From: a virus
Length of the DNA: 22,158 bases
Virus record (IMG/VR): IMGVR_UViG_3300018049_000165
Span: 1-22,158 of that record
Reading direction: 5' to 3' (one strand)
Shown here: piece by piece, positions 10,613 through 17,769 of the stretch
Layout of the letters: every line of letters begins with the position of its first letter
Numbering within the stretch: the first letter of the stretch is position 1
The notes under the pieces: model-generated
The model's input: only the letters and a program-made list of their open reading frames with translations
Told to the model about the DNA's origin: nothing
The model's database searches: none
Position numbers and translations under genes: made by a program

Positions 10613-11500
10613 TTAAATTTTAAAGGTAAAACGTATAATATCGCCTTCTTTTAACTCTTTTACTATAGTAACTACATTATTAACAATTGTAAAGTCAAAG
10701 TAGTGTTGAATTTGTACTCCATTTAATTCTACTTTAAGTTTTTCAACTGGTTCCATGCTAGGAGTTTGTGAAAGTGTAAAGACTTTTGAATCAGAAAATG
10801 TGAAGTTTTCTACAGTTATAGTTTTTTCATATTCTTTAGCAATACCACGCTTGATACCTTCCGGAGTTTTAGGCAAAAACTTTAATGTTTCAGCATAATA
10901 TGCAAATCTTGCACGTGCAAGTTGTTCTACTGACAAGGTTCCTAGTTCATTTTTATCACGCATTTCAAAAATGCCAGTCTGTCTCATCCAACTTCTTGTT
11001 TTATATTTTCCATAGTCAGCAAGTTTAATAATACTAGCAGCACGAATACAAAATGGTGAATTGAAGTTACTTCTTTTAATAATACTTGCTACTATATCCC
11101 AGTCTTTGTTGGCAATATATTCTCTGATTTCGTAATTTTTCTCTGGTGCAGTAACAGTTAAAATATCACCGTTAATAATAAAATATAGTAACAGCCCATC
11201 AAACGTACATTGTGATATTTCTAATATACCAATTGCTTTTAACTGCTTGATAAAAATTCGCTGATTTCTTTGAAAATCAGAAATCCAAATATCATATGCT
11301 TCTTGTTCAGTAATACCACGACTAACTTCACTAACATCGTAAGCGTATGTATTATATCCACTGTAGCGTGACATGTTAAGTGTTACTAGTTCTAATGTTT
11401 CACTAGCACTAATATTGTCAATACCTATTAAGGTATCAACAGAGTTTTGGTCTTTAACAACAAAATCTGTCCAATCAGTAAGATACTTATTTTCTATCAT
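10613..11500 (-). CDS. Baseplate/tail structural protein with degenerate lysozyme-like region
   Basis: This 295-residue protein lies between the gp5-like spike and gp25. Residues about 48-165 resemble the T4-lysozyme (GH24) fold by pattern: ITEQEAYDIW matches the ITKDEAEKLF helix, TFDGLLLYFIINGD matches the helix around 'DAVRRCALINMVFQMG', and REYIANKDWDIVASIIKRS matches 'RMLQQKRWDEAAVNLAKS'. The N-terminal glutamate helix (DEGLR in T4) has no counterpart, so catalysis is unlikely. Residues about 228-295 look like a small beta-sandwich with a VELNGVQ turn, as seen in tail proteins. The start at 11500 overlaps the upstream stop (ATGA) and follows GGAG. A baseplate role is inferred from position. 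I do not recognise a T4 gene name. Confidence 0.75.
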   Translation of the reverse strand: MIENKYLTDWTDFVVKDQNSVDTLIGIDNISASETLELVTLNMSRYSGYNTYAYDVSEVSRGITEQEAYDIWISDFQRNQRIFIKQLKAIGILEISQCTFDGLLLYFIINGDILTVTAPEKNYEIREYIANKDWDIVASIIKRSNFNSPFCIRAASIIKLADYGKYKTRSWMRQTGIFEMRDKNELGTLSVEQLARARFAYYAETLKFLPKTPEGIKRGIAKEYEKTITVENFTFSDSKVFTLSQTPSMEPVEKLKVELNGVQIQHYFDFTIVNNVVTIVKELKEGDIIRFTFKI

Positions 11501-13026
11501 ACGTCTCTACTCCAGCGTTGGTTAAATTTATCATTTTGTTCAGGGCCAGCCCCAGAAGCGGCTACACCAGAACCAGAAGCGGCTACACCAGAACCAGAAA
11601 CAGCCACACCAGAACCCGAAACAGCTACACCAGAACCCGAAACAGCTTGGCCTGTTTTTCGGCGTCTGCCCCCACGTCCATTTTGCGGACCAAATGTTAA
11701 TGCTTCAGTATCTTCTTCTGGCACACTAAGTGTTGATCCCACATTAGAAACATCGTAATCTTTAGCTGTAGTTTGTGCACTAGCTGGTGCTTGTGCTGCG
11801 ACCTGTGTATCTGCTTGTACAGTATGCCCACCCCAGGGCTCATGTTCTGGAACACGTGGGTTAATACTTTCTTTAACTGTTCTGTTTGCTGCTAAACTTC
11901 CACTTGTTGGGCCAACTGCGCCAAGTGCCGTTGGACCGTTCAAGTCTAATATACCATCTGTACTAATGCGTCCATAACCAGTTGCTTTTAACTGTAAGTT
12001 TAAATCAGTTGTAAAGCGTATGTCTTTGTTTGACTTAAATTGCATTGGGCCAGTTGCTGTCTCAGCTTGTATACCTGCTGCACCACGTGCTTTAATATTA
12101 AATGTATCAGCATCTAAGTTAATATCGCCTCCGGCATATAAATTAAAATCTTGTTCTGTGTGGTAGCTGATACTTCCTTGTGCATAAATGTCAACATTGC
12201 CATTAGAGTCCATTTGTATCCAACTACTACCATTTTGATTGTTAATATAAACAATGCCTTCAGTATCATTGAATAACATTTGTGCTCCACCAGCACTGCG
12301 TAATCTCATTAAGTTGCTTTGACCTTCTTTTCGTGACTGGTCAGGAACGTAGTTTTCGCCTTCTTTATATGCAACTGTGCCGTCATCCATAACAAAACTA
12401 TGGCCGCCTGGCGTTAAAAACCCTGCTACATTAGTTGGTGATTCACGACGTGATCCACTACTGCCAATACCACGTGCAGGATCTAAACCAAGACCCTGTG
12501 CTGCAACTGCATTTGCAACCGGATGTCTTGGTCGAATATTTTGATCTTGATCAGCACCTGGATCTATACTAGCCCCAATACCTTGTTCGCCTTCAATTTG
12601 GCTTGCAGGTAATCCTGGTACACTACTATTTCTTCCAGTTTGTGGTAGTACTCCTAATAAAAACCCAACAGAGTCGTTACCAGTAAACCCAACTAGTACT
12701 TCAGTACCCGGTCCTGGTGGAGGGAAACATGAACCATATGAAACAGTTGTGTCCCTTCCTGTAACAGTACCACCAAAAGGAGACACTGTTCTTACTTTTT
12801 GAAACTGATGCCTTTGCTCTCTAGTATCACGCTCCCCAAATGTTTGTTGTCCTACAAGTTCTACATATATGGCTTGGTCGTAATCACCAGACGCAACATC
12901 AACTACTTTTGCTAAAAATATGCCATTGGCCATCATAAACCCAGAGCGATCACCACTGTGATAAACTGCTGGTACACCCAATGAGTCTCTGTTACTACCT
13001 GTAAATTTATTTGCCTCTTTTGACAT
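11497..13026 (-). CDS. 5: gp5-like baseplate hub spike, without lysozyme domain
   Basis: This is a 509-residue central spike protein of the gp5/VgrG type. Residues about 33-130 form the OB-fold (MMANGIFLAKVVDV, then VSPFGG, PPPGPGTEVLVGF and a closing VGFLLGVLP). A proline/glycine-rich linker follows. Residues about 240-365 form the trimeric beta-helix needle (SSWIQMDSNGNVDIYAQGS, GGDINLDADTFNIKA). T4 gp5 carries a muramidase between these two parts; it is absent here. The C-terminus is unusual: a basic RGGRRRK stretch (451-457) followed by five 7-residue repeats of the AVSGSGV type (461-495). The start is supported by AAGGAAT 3-4 bases upstream. The 1082-residue lytic protein is encoded 16 bases upstream, so the two probably assemble together at the hub. 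Confidence 0.88.
   Translation of the reverse strand: MSKEANKFTGSNRDSLGVPAVYHSGDRSGFMMANGIFLAKVVDVASGDYDQAIYVELVGQQTFGERDTREQRHQFQKVRTVSPFGGTVTGRDTTVSYGSCFPPPGPGTEVLVGFTGNDSVGFLLGVLPQTGRNSSVPGLPASQIEGEQGIGASIDPGADQDQNIRPRHPVANAVAAQGLGLDPARGIGSSGSRRESPTNVAGFLTPGGHSFVMDDGTVAYKEGENYVPDQSRKEGQSNLMRLRSAGGAQMLFNDTEGIVYINNQNGSSWIQMDSNGNVDIYAQGSISYHTEQDFNLYAGGDINLDADTFNIKARGAAGIQAETATGPMQFKSNKDIRFTTDLNLQLKATGYGRISTDGILDLNGPTALGAVGPTSGSLAANRTVKESINPRVPEHEPWGGHTVQADTQVAAQAPASAQTTAKDYDVSNVGSTLSVPEEDTEALTFGPQNGRGGRRRKTGQAVSGSGVAVSGSGVAVSGSGVAASGSGVAASGAGPEQNDKFNQRWSRDV
11542..11646 (-). repeat. Five tandem 21-bp repeats in the 3' end of the gp5-like gene
   Basis: The repeats encode AVSGSGV three times, AASGSGV once and a final AASGAGP. 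Copies differ at a few bases. The unit is 7 codons, so slippage would add or remove whole heptads without shifting frame. Small-residue heptads could form a flexible tail or sheath on the spike. Confidence 0.9.
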
Positions 13027-13042
13027 TATGATTCCTTAACTA

Positions 13043-16000
13043 TTAACTATTATACATATTAACTAACCAAGCAGGCGGTGCATGGCCAGAAGTTTTACCA
13101 CTGCCTCCCCAATATGGACCGGCATTTGGATCAGATGCTGCACTTGAAAATCCTGGCGTTCTTGCAATATCATAATGGAATGCAGTTCCGCTCATATAAA
13201 GTTCACTTCCTGATCCATACGCTGGGTTACCAATACCAACACTTGGAACAAGTCCTGCTGCACGTGTAGCTACAAGATATGCATTTGTGTAAGTTTGAAT
13301 TATTGCAAGATCAGCTGGGTTTTCAACACTTAGCAATCTACCGTTGCTAAACAATTGAACATCTGCAGCACTGCCATTGTGTCTACCACTTGGGTTGCTA
13401 CCGCCACTTCTAACCCCACTGGTCACAACTGCAGTTACTCCTGCTTCTGCTGCAGCAGATTGAAGTGCTGAAGTGAGTTGCGAATTGAGACCAGCAGTAT
13501 CACCACCTACACTACCATTGTCGCCACCAGTTGAGCTTCCTGGTAAAACTTCTGAGTTATCAGTTGGTATTGGATCACCATTCACATCGTCTATTCCGTC
13601 ACCATCACTGTCTATATAATTTTGTTGTAAGTTTCTTGCCCCTTGGTTTTGCACCCTACCAGACAACAATTGTTCTATCAACATAGGAACATTAGTGTTT
13701 ACGTCTCTAAAACTTGTTAATGATTGCTTAAATTCACCATTTGTATACATTGATTGAACTGTTAAAACACGGAACAATGCAGTAATAGTAAAGTTTTCAA
13801 AGTTCTGGTTCATAAACCCATCTTCGCCTTCGTAAGTTGGGAAACGTACATGTAAGAAATAACCAATACCACCTTCACTGTAGTTTGCTTGATTTGAGTT
13901 AGTTACACTAGCACCTCTAGGCTTTCCTAACCAATAAGGATCTCCACGTATATCAATACGCTGTTCTACCATACTTTCAACAGCGTTTAAATTAAGCTCT
14001 AATGCACCTAACATTGCAGTTCCGACATTGTCAGTTAAATCTGCACCAGATGCTGCTAAACTATCACTTACACTTCTGTAATCAAAATTCATTGACTTTG
14101 CAATGCTATCTATATACGATGATCCTGCAAAAACATCAGACTGAGTAATATATTGTTTTGCACTTGGACTTAGTGAATTTTGTGTATTACGTGACAACTC
14201 TGCTAATTCTCTTGTTGCATCTTCAGCAGAGGTTGTTGTATCAAATTGCTGCCTTCTTAATTGTGCAATTGTAAATTCTGTGGCTTGTCTTTCTTGTTCT
14301 AAAGCATTTAGGGCATCAGGGGTAACTCCACGGTTCCTAAACAGTGCTTGGCGTTCTCTATCAATTTCTTCCAAACGTCTGTTAAGACTAGATATTTGCT
14401 CACGTACAGATTGGAATGAATTTTTAGCTCTAACAGCATTTTGCTCTGCAGTAGTCAAACCATCAAAATAACTTCCTTGTCCTTGAACTGCACCACCGTT
14501 AATTGGCTGTAATGAATAAAATGTATTATTGAATGTTAAGTCAAGATTTAAAACCTCGGTGTTTAACCCAGTGTATGTATAATCAAAACGTTTCTTTAAA
14601 AGACCGTTACGTAATATATTATCCATTCGCAATGTTTGTAATCTAGTGTCTGTGTTTAGTTCACTGAAACTAACTGGGTCATGGATGCCTTCTATTGTAA
14701 TAAAAGGAGTTATATTATACACGATTTCTTTTTGATATTGTCTTGACAGTGCATCAAATTTTCTATACAGTACTTCTGTACTAAAACTAAACCATCTCAT
14801 CATCTCGGCTAGTTTTGGTGCTTCTGCAGTTCCTGTGTCAGGATTTTCTTTTGCAAACTGGCCATTGTGTAAAGGTACTCTTTTGAAATTTCGAGTTTGT
14901 AATATTGCTGCAGCAATTGCTGCAGTCATACCTGTACCTGCTTTTAAGTTAAACGTCACTGTGCCGCCTGATGCTGTCACACTTATGTTTCTAGATTCAT
15001 TTAGTTGTTCCCCAACAACACCATCAAACTCCCAACTTAGCCATTCTTCTGCATCACCTTGTGCGCCAAAAGTATATAAAGTTGGATAAAGTTTGCTAAG
15101 TGTTAGTGAGGTTTGTTTTACGGTTTCATCATTTACTTTTTGTTCAAAGTCTGTTAAAAAATCTCCAAAGTTAGAAGCAGTAACAGTTATGTCTGATCGT
15201 AAATGGTATTCCAATCTGTTGTATGCTTCTTGATGTGTTTCTACAAATGCAACTTGATAGGAGGTAGCACTATCCATGTGTTTGGTTTGAAAATTAGTAA
15301 TTGTTGTCATATAATAATAAGGACCAACAATCTCATCTACTGGTGTGCCATCTTGGTGCCATCCACGGAAATTTAACTCCAGCAAATAACAGGCTTCAAG
15401 ATGATTTTTTATGTCTAAATCTTGTGCAGCTAAAACAATTCGATTAAACAATGTAAATCCTTTTGCTTCTAGTAATGAAATGTCAAAAGTATTAGCTACA
15501 CTGTTTCTATTATCACGTACAAATGTAAGTGTATTGGACTGTATTACAGTTTCAATACTAATTTCATTTTCAACACCGCTTTCGGCAATTGTTACATATG
15601 TGTTTCTAGCTAAGTTTTCTTCAAAGTCTTGTGCTGTTTGCGGATGCACCATGTGTATGGCCCAACTGTAGGTATAAGAGTCAAATTGATTTAAAACATT
15701 ATCTTCATAAAAACTTTGGCCGCCGCCCCTGTTAAATCTTTCTTCTACATCTGTTAGCTCACGTGCTTCTTCTGGTGTTTCAACAGACGGAGTTTCTGGC
15801 TCTGGTGTAAAATCTTCACTAGGTATAACTTCATTTTCACCATTATCCCAGTTTAACATGTTTGTTTGGCGATCTGCACGCCACTGTGCAATACCCCAGG
15901 CTCCTAAATTACCACCCGCTGGATTAAATGCGTTTGGATCTAGATTCCTGCCGCTTTCTGCCATTAAGTTTCCAACAATCCCGGCAGCTTGGTTTGGTGT

Positions 16001-16291
16001 GTATCCTCGACTTACTAGGTAATTGTATGATGTAGCTACGTTAGGGCTAATAGAAGACAGTGTTCCGTTAGTTGCTGCCTCTCTAACTTCTGTTGCATTG
16101 TTTATTCTTCTGTTAAGTGCAGAACCGCCACTTCTTTCGTAACGCTGTTCAAATGCTATTGCAGCGTCACGTGAACTCATGTTTGGGTTTAGGTAATCAT
16201 TAACGTTTCCGCCATTACCTGTTCCCATTTCATTAACGAGAAACCCAAGTTGTGCTTCAAGGGATGGTGCTCCGTCTTTAGTTTGAACCAT
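13043..16291 (-). CDS. Large baseplate protein with permuted tail lysozyme and C-terminal M15-like peptidase
   Basis: This 1082-residue protein has several parts. Residues 9-65 (LEAQLGFLVNEM, then RDAAIAFEQRYERSG) match the C-terminal half of the phage tail lysozyme domain. Residues 87-148 (YNYLVSRGYTPNQAAGIVG, NLMAESG with candidate catalytic Glu112, GAWGIAQWRADRQ) match its N-terminal half, so the order is swapped. Residues about 200-610 are an unrecognised beta-rich structural region that could supply hub functions, since no separate gp27 is seen. Residues about 612-705 form a strong coiled coil. A calcium-loop-like DSDGDGIDD lies near residue 894. Residues about 930-1082 resemble an M15-type D,D- or L,D-peptidase with probable zinc ligands His971, Asp977 (GRHNGSAADVQ) and His1039 (AFHYDIA). 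No signal peptide is present. GGAG precedes the ATG, which overlaps the gp53 stop as TAATG. Cutting of host peptidoglycan during entry is the inferred job. Confidence 0.85.
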   Translation of the reverse strand: MVQTKDGAPSLEAQLGFLVNEMGTGNGGNVNDYLNPNMSSRDAAIAFEQRYERSGGSALNRRINNATEVREAATNGTLSSISPNVATSYNYLVSRGYTPNQAAGIVGNLMAESGRNLDPNAFNPAGGNLGAWGIAQWRADRQTNMLNWDNGENEVIPSEDFTPEPETPSVETPEEARELTDVEERFNRGGGQSFYEDNVLNQFDSYTYSWAIHMVHPQTAQDFEENLARNTYVTIAESGVENEISIETVIQSNTLTFVRDNRNSVANTFDISLLEAKGFTLFNRIVLAAQDLDIKNHLEACYLLELNFRGWHQDGTPVDEIVGPYYYMTTITNFQTKHMDSATSYQVAFVETHQEAYNRLEYHLRSDITVTASNFGDFLTDFEQKVNDETVKQTSLTLSKLYPTLYTFGAQGDAEEWLSWEFDGVVGEQLNESRNISVTASGGTVTFNLKAGTGMTAAIAAAILQTRNFKRVPLHNGQFAKENPDTGTAEAPKLAEMMRWFSFSTEVLYRKFDALSRQYQKEIVYNITPFITIEGIHDPVSFSELNTDTRLQTLRMDNILRNGLLKKRFDYTYTGLNTEVLNLDLTFNNTFYSLQPINGGAVQGQGSYFDGLTTAEQNAVRAKNSFQSVREQISSLNRRLEEIDRERQALFRNRGVTPDALNALEQERQATEFTIAQLRRQQFDTTTSAEDATRELAELSRNTQNSLSPSAKQYITQSDVFAGSSYIDSIAKSMNFDYRSVSDSLAASGADLTDNVGTAMLGALELNLNAVESMVEQRIDIRGDPYWLGKPRGASVTNSNQANYSEGGIGYFLHVRFPTYEGEDGFMNQNFENFTITALFRVLTVQSMYTNGEFKQSLTSFRDVNTNVPMLIEQLLSGRVQNQGARNLQQNYIDSDGDGIDDVNGDPIPTDNSEVLPGSSTGGDNGSVGGDTAGLNSQLTSALQSAAAEAGVTAVVTSGVRSGGSNPSGRHNGSAADVQLFSNGRLLSVENPADLAIIQTYTNAYLVATRAAGLVPSVGIGNPAYGSGSELYMSGTAFHYDIARTPGFSSAASDPNAGPYWGGSGKTSGHAPPAWLVNMYNS

Positions 16292-16590
16292 TAACTAACT
16301 CCAGTAGCTATTTTCTTGCTAGGGACATTAATAATAGTTCCTGCAACAAAATCATTTATTGGATCCTTTAAAATGTCTCTGTTATAGTGTACAAATATCC
16401 ACCAATATCTGGCATTGCCGTACATATCAAATGCTAATAGGTCAGGACGTCTATTATACCTGTTGCCTACTCGAATTTTTTTAGTTTCTTGACTTAAATT
16501 GTCTATTGTAATTTTAGGAGAATAAACATCTAAGTATTTTCTATTCATTTTTGTTGCTGAATAATTACTAGAGTCTTTATAGGCTGTCAT
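16291..16590 (-). CDS. 53: Baseplate wedge protein gp53
   Basis: This 99-residue protein has the gp53-family pattern: NRYNRRPDLLAFDMYGNARY, WWIFVHYNRD, then DPINDFVAGTIINVPS, which is a LysM-like ending. In T4 gp53 links neighbouring wedges around the hub; it has 196 residues, so this is a compact version with only the core. GGGAGGA upstream supports the start. It is joined by 1-base TAATG overlaps to the genes on both sides, as expected for strong translational coupling. Confidence 0.85.
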   Translation of the reverse strand: MTAYKDSSNYSATKMNRKYLDVYSPKITIDNLSQETKKIRVGNRYNRRPDLLAFDMYGNARYWWIFVHYNRDILKDPINDFVAGTIINVPSKKIATGVS

Positions 16591-17192
16591 TAAATAAATC
16601 CTCCCTGATATAAATTACCATTTACAAAAGCAGTTTTACTAAATTGTTGTTTTTGTTTTGCAGGATTTACAGTTACTAGCAGATCTAATGCAACGGTTTG
16701 TACTGCTGGTAGTGCAGCACCTTCATGCTCAACTAAATCAGTGTCACTTTGATAGGGTATACTAACATTTCCAACAACAACTGGTACTTGGTTAAATTGT
16801 GTTTCTCCGAATGCGCTGAAACTTAGTACAGGCGGTGGAGTACCTGCTGTTGGTGTTTGTGGTACATCGCCTAAACCATAAAACATTTTAGTTACACTGC
16901 GTAAAAAGTGTATTACACCTTGTGTATATCTGTGTTCTTCTGCAGTTACGTTACTAAACTGTGCAGTAATCTGTAGTGTAGGACTAGGAGTACTTGCATA
17001 TGCATACGTTGTATAGTTTGTGTGTGTTAAGTTGTACGGAGTGTAATTTACACTTTGGTTGTAAACAATATCTGGCTGGTTAGGAAAAACTATTCCTTGT
17101 GTAGGTGTAAGCGCAACTGCAGGGCCTCCAAAATAAAAGCCACTACTTCCACGTACTGTTAACCTTGCTCGTTTATTGTCACTTACCGACAT
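16590..17192 (-). CDS. 48: gp48-like baseplate tail-tube cap protein
   Basis: This is a 200-residue protein. The central stretch (EEHRYTQGVIHFLRSVTKMF, YGLGDVPQTP, then GTPPPVLSFSAFG) and the later FNQVPVVVGNVSI, ALPAVQTVALDLLVTVNP and C-terminal FVNGNLYQGGFI fit the tube-like part of T4 gp48, which caps the hub and starts tail-tube polymerisation. T4 gp48 is longer (364 residues), so an N-terminal portion is missing or reduced; gp54 is a possible alternative identity. The start at 17192 overlaps the end of the nucleotidyltransferase by 14 bases. Naming rests on recalled family patterns and position before gp53. Confidence 0.65.
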   Translation of the reverse strand: MSVSDNKRARLTVRGSSGFYFGGPAVALTPTQGIVFPNQPDIVYNQSVNYTPYNLTHTNYTTYAYASTPSPTLQITAQFSNVTAEEHRYTQGVIHFLRSVTKMFYGLGDVPQTPTAGTPPPVLSFSAFGETQFNQVPVVVGNVSIPYQSDTDLVEHEGAALPAVQTVALDLLVTVNPAKQKQQFSKTAFVNGNLYQGGFI

Positions 17193-17769
17193 TTAATTTG
17201 TCCTTAACAAAATCATATATTTCTGGATTAAAATTACCAAAAAAATCTTCAAATGCTTCTTGCTTTTGCTTTTCAGTTAATCCTGGCATACGCATAGCAT
17301 TACGGAATGTAGTTGCACTGCGTCCGTCATCTTCAACAGGCACAGTATAAATGTATCCTGCTTCGTCACTTGACAACAATTGTTCACCATCACTATACAT
17401 TTTAAAATAGTTTCCTGGTTGGAGTCTACCAGCGTCTTTTTCGCTAAACACAACTATTAGTGCTGTGTTATTTGGGTCTCTGCCAGCAGCAGAAACATCT
17501 GGTCTATAAGGCATAGTATTAATAATGTTTGATCCTGGTATACCAAACATTTTTTGCATTAACATTTTCTTTTCATCAAAAGTAAAAGGGTCTTTTTCTG
17601 GTGTTGCATTCTTACCAACCATAGTAGCGATAAATACGTTATCACTACCAAACTTGCGTACAAGGTTCATATACACTTTATTGTGTCCACTGTGCATAGG
17701 TTGAAACCTACCGCCATAAAACACGGCGATATTATTTGCAGGTGCTTCGATAAGTTGTGAGTATCTCAT
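17179..17769 (-). CDS. Nucleotidyltransferase, probably nicotinamide-nucleotide adenylyltransferase-like
   Basis: This 196-residue protein has the cytidylyltransferase-like Rossmann fold: AVFYGGRFQPMHSGHNK with the HxGH nucleotide-binding motif at residues 26-29, and a late SATTFRNAM (151-159) equivalent to the family's ISxTxxR phosphate-binding motif. Such enzymes join a nucleotide to NMN, FMN, pantetheine phosphate or a polyol phosphate. The GGRFQPxHxGH pattern fits NMNAT/NadM-type enzymes best, but the substrate cannot be settled by eye. It is the first gene of the late baseplate operon, with AGGAGA 5 bases before the ATG and a late-promoter-like box just upstream. The product could restore NAD pools late in infection; that role is inference. 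Confidence 0.8.
   Translation of the reverse strand: MRYSQLIEAPANNIAVFYGGRFQPMHSGHNKVYMNLVRKFGSDNVFIATMVGKNATPEKDPFTFDEKKMLMQKMFGIPGSNIINTMPYRPDVSAAGRDPNNTALIVVFSEKDAGRLQPGNYFKMYSDGEQLLSSDEAGYIYTVPVEDDGRSATTFRNAMRMPGLTEKQKQEAFEDFFGNFNPEIYDFVKDKLNVGK

Follow-up and report, generated by a model that had tools for sequence, protein, structure and literature searches.

A probable circular permutation of a phage tail lysozyme domain at the N-terminus of a baseplate hub-like protein

In phage T4, a lysozyme resides inside the spike protein gp5. The tail lysozymes of Pfam family PF18013 (Phage_lysozyme2) are described by a model of 140 positions, with a gathering score of 28.2 bits, in which the catalytic half comes first. 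The phi29 protein gp13 (PDB 3csr) is canonical in the same sense, the counterpart of the C-terminal half (residues 121-156) following that of the N-terminal half. In the wider lysozyme fold, the Enc34 endolysin (ORF39) is a phage enzyme whose sequence does not recognisably resemble those of known lysozymes and whose helices are permuted in order relative to families GH73 and GH23, the catalytic glutamate being kept in place (PMC8943055). Both the family and the fold considered here are known, and Enc34 is a precedent within the wider fold; a permutation inside PF18013 itself is new within the bounds of a limited search of the open-licence literature, whose titles and abstracts yielded no prior report of one.

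Here, we analysed a stretch of 22,158 nucleotides (the window; IMG/VR record IMGVR_UViG_3300018049_000165) that probably derives from an uncultured bacterial virus of T4-like type. It contains a gene cluster of that type, including baseplate wedge subunits, gp25-like and gp53-like proteins, a late sigma factor and an SbcCD-like nuclease pair. A cytidyltransferase-like gene (17179-17769) is also located within the baseplate cluster, and a similar gene occupies the equivalent place in the relative L011. The gene under study (13043..16291, minus strand) is an open reading frame encoding 1082 amino acids; its neighbours encode a gp53-like protein, gp25 and a baseplate wedge subunit, and residues 196-860 of its product match phrog_11190 (virion structural protein; E 1.5e-37). 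The product is termed hub-like on the grounds of this gene context and of the phrog_11190 match; no match to gp27 was obtained for it, and a PDB search with a profile built from five hub relatives retrieved phi29 gp13 only. The start codon of the hub gene overlaps the stop codon of the upstream gp53-like gene in a TAATG motif (16289..16293, minus strand; TTAATGG), which is kept in nearly all the hub relatives checked, irrespective of the N-terminal domain they carry. The neighbouring gp5-like spike protein (509 aa, 11497-13026) gave no lysozyme match in profile searches. Its C-terminal end is made of low-complexity repeats (SGSGVAVSGSGVAASG...).

A first-pass annotation of the window had proposed that residues 9-148 of the hub-like protein (15848-16267) form a tail lysozyme domain whose two halves stand in swapped order, with residues 9-65 representing the C-terminal half and the gene beginning exactly at the cut. 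The segment does lie at these positions on a genuine open reading frame of 1082 residues, and the gene does begin at the cut, its ATG overlapping the stop codon of the preceding baseplate gene. The whole protein scored 89 bits against PF18013, in two swapped pieces. The C-terminal half comes first, residues 7-69 (16085..16273, minus strand) matching profile positions 71-136, as had been proposed for residues 9-65, while the catalytic N-terminal half comes second, residues 85-150 (15842..16039, minus strand) matching positions 3-66. Each half taken singly exceeded the gathering score, with 34.5 bits (E 2.7e-8) for the C-terminal half in fragment 1-80 and 64.7 bits (E 1.3e-17) for the N-terminal half in fragment 81-155 (profile 3-65). 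The same two pieces were recovered at the DNA level, at 16085-16288 for the C-terminal half (profile 66-136, E 1.2e-9) and at 15839-16039 for the N-terminal half (profile 3-67, E 3.6e-19). As the collinear order of PF18013, catalytic half first, is absent from a domain in which residues 7-69 are the C-terminal half and residues 85-150 the N-terminal half, the hub domain is a permuted variant of the family and not an ordinary member.

Rejoining the halves in the canonical order produced a single continuous PF18013 match spanning profile positions 3-136 (E 8.6e-29, 100.9 bits), and placing residues 1-155 twice in tandem, as suggested in the first-pass annotation, likewise gave one continuous match (3-136) over the join. 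The same annotation had described a new linker between the swapped halves at residues 66-86. Such a junction, connecting the two former termini of the domain, does exist, but its limits are better set at about residues 70-84 (16040..16084, minus strand), the gap between the two profile matches, with helices predicted at 59-75 and 83-94.

We then considered how widely the swapped order occurs. Close relatives in IMG/VR (L001-L010, 56-100% identity) display it wherever the contig includes the N-terminus, with the gene starting at the cut. Half-domain profiles were run over all fetched loci, and domains were sorted by the order of their halves. This gave 187 distinct viral-locus domains, of which 145 were canonical, 36 permuted and six limited to the N-terminal half; a few entries in the set originate from species genomes or a cultured phage. 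None of the 187 combined both orders or had a C-terminal half on both sides. The linker between halves is 11-16 residues long in all 36 permuted domains (C then N), compared with a median of 12 in canonical ones (N then C). In complete permuted copies the C-terminal half starts 7-14 residues from the beginning of the open reading frame, always at the N-terminus, whereas canonical domains are found at any position in the protein. Applied to whole contigs, the model from Pfam itself returned two swapped pieces for 21 out of 21 permuted contigs and one continuous piece for four out of four canonical control contigs; in the cultured Bacillus phage P59, which served as a canonical control, the N-terminal half was followed by the C-terminal half (E 4e-17 and 1e-17). 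In the species genomes scanned, the domain was present as canonical copies or as one half only (L166-L168). The cultured Synechococcus phage Sf-FP1 had been a permuted candidate and was rejected, being canonical with profile positions 3-122 in a single piece. One permuted copy (L146:3992-4721) extends over two overlapping frames, its N-terminal half being matched in two open reading frames, and probably reflects a frameshift or a sequencing error.

The survey extends the swapped arrangement well beyond the single protein for which it had been claimed. It also bears on whether the similarity of residues 9-65 might be fortuitous, or the contig misassembled. We found no point in favour of this reading, to which we assign a practically negligible probability: the C-terminal half alone reached E 2.7e-8 against the whole of Pfam-A, and the 36 distinct sequences that share this order on many independent contigs refute it. 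We consider it very probable that residues ~7-150 of the hub-like protein form a circularly permuted tail lysozyme of the PF18013 type that is natural, real and maintained, because many relatives, including those of a second phage group, share the rearranged enzyme.

Structure prediction is in line with a circularly permuted domain. With an alignment of 32 relatives, AlphaFold2 modelled residues 1-152 as one compact domain (pLDDT 89.3, pTM 0.88), the outcome that the first-pass annotation had anticipated, while an alignment of five sequences gave a poor model (pLDDT 54). Neither of the results that the annotation had named as contrary to its proposal was obtained. The junction region is among the most confident parts of the former, with pLDDT values of 96-98 in blocks 61-100. 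A Foldseek search of the model, an alignment method that follows sequence order, found nothing at E ≤ 0.001 in the PDB and BFVD. The presumed catalytic residue, Glu112 (codon 15956..15958, minus strand), is a glutamate in 32 of 32 permuted sequences and aligns by profile with residue 45 of phi29 gp13 (PDB 3csr), also a glutamate and the catalytic one of gp13. Also invariant in these 32 sequences are Gly104, Gly107-Met110, Ser113, Phe47-Glu48, Glu52-Arg53 and Arg62.

Two further explanations accept the swapped order and differ in what they make of it. T4-type hubs are oligomeric, and the halves might complement each other between neighbouring protomers, the C-terminal half of one hub chain packing on the N-terminal half of the next; sequence data fit packing within and between chains equally. 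Such a domain swap appears unlikely, since the junction measures just 11-16 residues in 36 of 36 copies, the prediction within one chain is of high confidence, and the halves are arranged identically in a second protein, whose phage is of a different type and which is not bound to assemble into such a ring. Circular permutations classically arise through tandem duplication, and the two halves could alternatively be the decayed remnants of such an event (the second half of copy 1 and the first half of copy 2) in which the working enzyme has been lost, remnants that would look identical in any single sequence. This reading is very improbable in view of the conservation of the glutamate and the core motifs, which holds among permuted sequences down to 35% identity, of dN/dS values of 0.05-0.33 for the permuted domain (in pairs with enough changes), and of the compact and confident predicted fold. 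Purifying selection together with the invariant catalytic glutamate instead argues for a working enzyme, and the comparison of sequences supports the permuted domain being functional.

Permuted copies are found in two contexts. The first group comprises hub-like proteins of T4-like viruses (890-1094 aa) and the second a virion protein of 479-539 aa from a different phage type, encoded near the portal gene; in L032, the gene lies two genes upstream of the portal gene (phrog_1216). Trees of the rejoined domains resolved two permuted clades that are not directly joined, with supports of 99/99 and 98/93 in a 58-row tree and of 100/99 and 100/95 in a 96-row tree. A single clade uniting all permuted copies was not rejected (AU p 0.449 and 0.445 for 58 and 96 rows, respectively), so that both readings stand: the two clades may stem from a single origin followed by transfer, or from two origins. 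We tentatively entertain, at somewhat less than even odds, that the same cut arose on two independent occasions, in T4-like hubs and in the virion protein encoded near the portal gene, as an N-terminal lysozyme tethered through its loop would suit a virion-borne enzyme. If so, the inter-half loop would have served as a permutation site more than once, and selection would have acted on the geometry of the tether.

Comparison of hub relatives clarifies where the domain sits in the protein. The hub core (residues 194-884; 13640..15712, minus strand) is kept with or without the lysozyme, and proteins with 34-39% identity begin here, the lysozyme being an extra module that separates the start codon from the conserved core motif 'YEDN[IV]LN'. 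Between the two, a linker (residues 151-193; 15713..15841, minus strand) tethers the lysozyme domain to the hub; it differs in length and sequence among relatives and is missing from L011, which starts with MVQFYEDNVLN. The slot is empty in L011 and in L102-L117, which start directly at the hub core, and holds a short extension in L101. It is filled by an 'NPGNIR' domain in L094-L100, which in L094 shows a relationship to families of phage endolysins and transglycosylases, and by a T4-type (GH24-type) lysozyme in L115, L118, L126 and L128 (PF00959 confirmed for L115 and L126). Unrelated muralytic domains are exchanged at the hub N-terminus, which carries the NPGNIR type, the T4 lysozyme type, the permuted tail lysozyme type or no such domain. 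That other muralytic domains take its place at this position is the strongest reason to think that the permuted domain has the same job, digesting peptidoglycan locally as the tail penetrates. At the other end of the protein, the C-terminal domain (residues 930-1082; 13046..13504, minus strand), aligned across seven relatives, is conserved in hub relatives whether or not the lysozyme is present and matched no Pfam or PHROG family. H971, D977, H1039 and D1041 are invariant in that alignment and resemble, by eye only, the ligands of M15-type metallopeptidases; the domain may be a second wall-cutting domain.

We propose that the old N- and C-termini have been joined by the short junction at residues 70-84, that the start of the protein would correspond to the loop linking the two halves in canonical enzymes, and that the rest of the hub would be attached at the other side of that loop. 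The two halves of a single chain are predicted to pack together as one lysozyme domain, whose putative active site contains Glu112. When the baseplate is at the cell surface, this domain would most likely cut peptidoglycan so that the tube can pass, by analogy with the gp5 lysozyme of T4. The comparison of relatives shows the domain to be a module placed between the hub start codon and the conserved core. The permutation shifts the tether, the hub chain exiting from the inter-half loop instead of the old C-terminus; an N-terminal module may gain from this shift, and the timing or regulation of the enzyme in the baseplate might hypothetically be altered, as the first-pass annotation had suggested. 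The arrangement likely arose when the domain was duplicated in tandem and the pair then lost its outer halves, although no N-C-N-C intermediate was present among the 187 distinct viral domains.

With both orders alive in one family and readable from sequence, PF18013 is useful for understanding how a new order arises and what is gained by it. The 36 permuted and 145 canonical domains, together with hub relatives whose slot is empty or otherwise filled, make the effect of tether position directly testable. Profile searches that assume a collinear order split or under-score permuted domains, so that permuted lysozymes may appear as partial matches elsewhere.

With members of PF18013 such as the tail lysin of Bacillus phage P59, the hub domain shares motifs, matches above the cut-off for both halves and occurrence in phage virion proteins; it differs in its swapped halves, its invariable location at the extreme N-terminus and the exit of the chain from the old inter-half loop. 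The permuted N-terminal half is collinear with residues 3-81 of phi29 gp13, Glu112 being aligned with Glu45, and a profile of the permuted family matched gp13 in two out-of-order pieces, significantly for the N-terminal half and weakly for the C-terminal half (6.3 bits by itself). Compared with Enc34, the family is another one and a different helix has moved; Enc34 is an endolysin whereas the hub domain belongs to a virion protein, and the Enc34 permutation was deduced across families from structure, while that of the hub is visible within one sequence family (PMC8943055). As with gp5 and gp27 of T4, the hub region of a contractile-tail baseplate carries a muralytic domain; unlike in T4, the gp5-like protein is without a lysozyme match and the domain is carried by the adjacently encoded hub-like protein.
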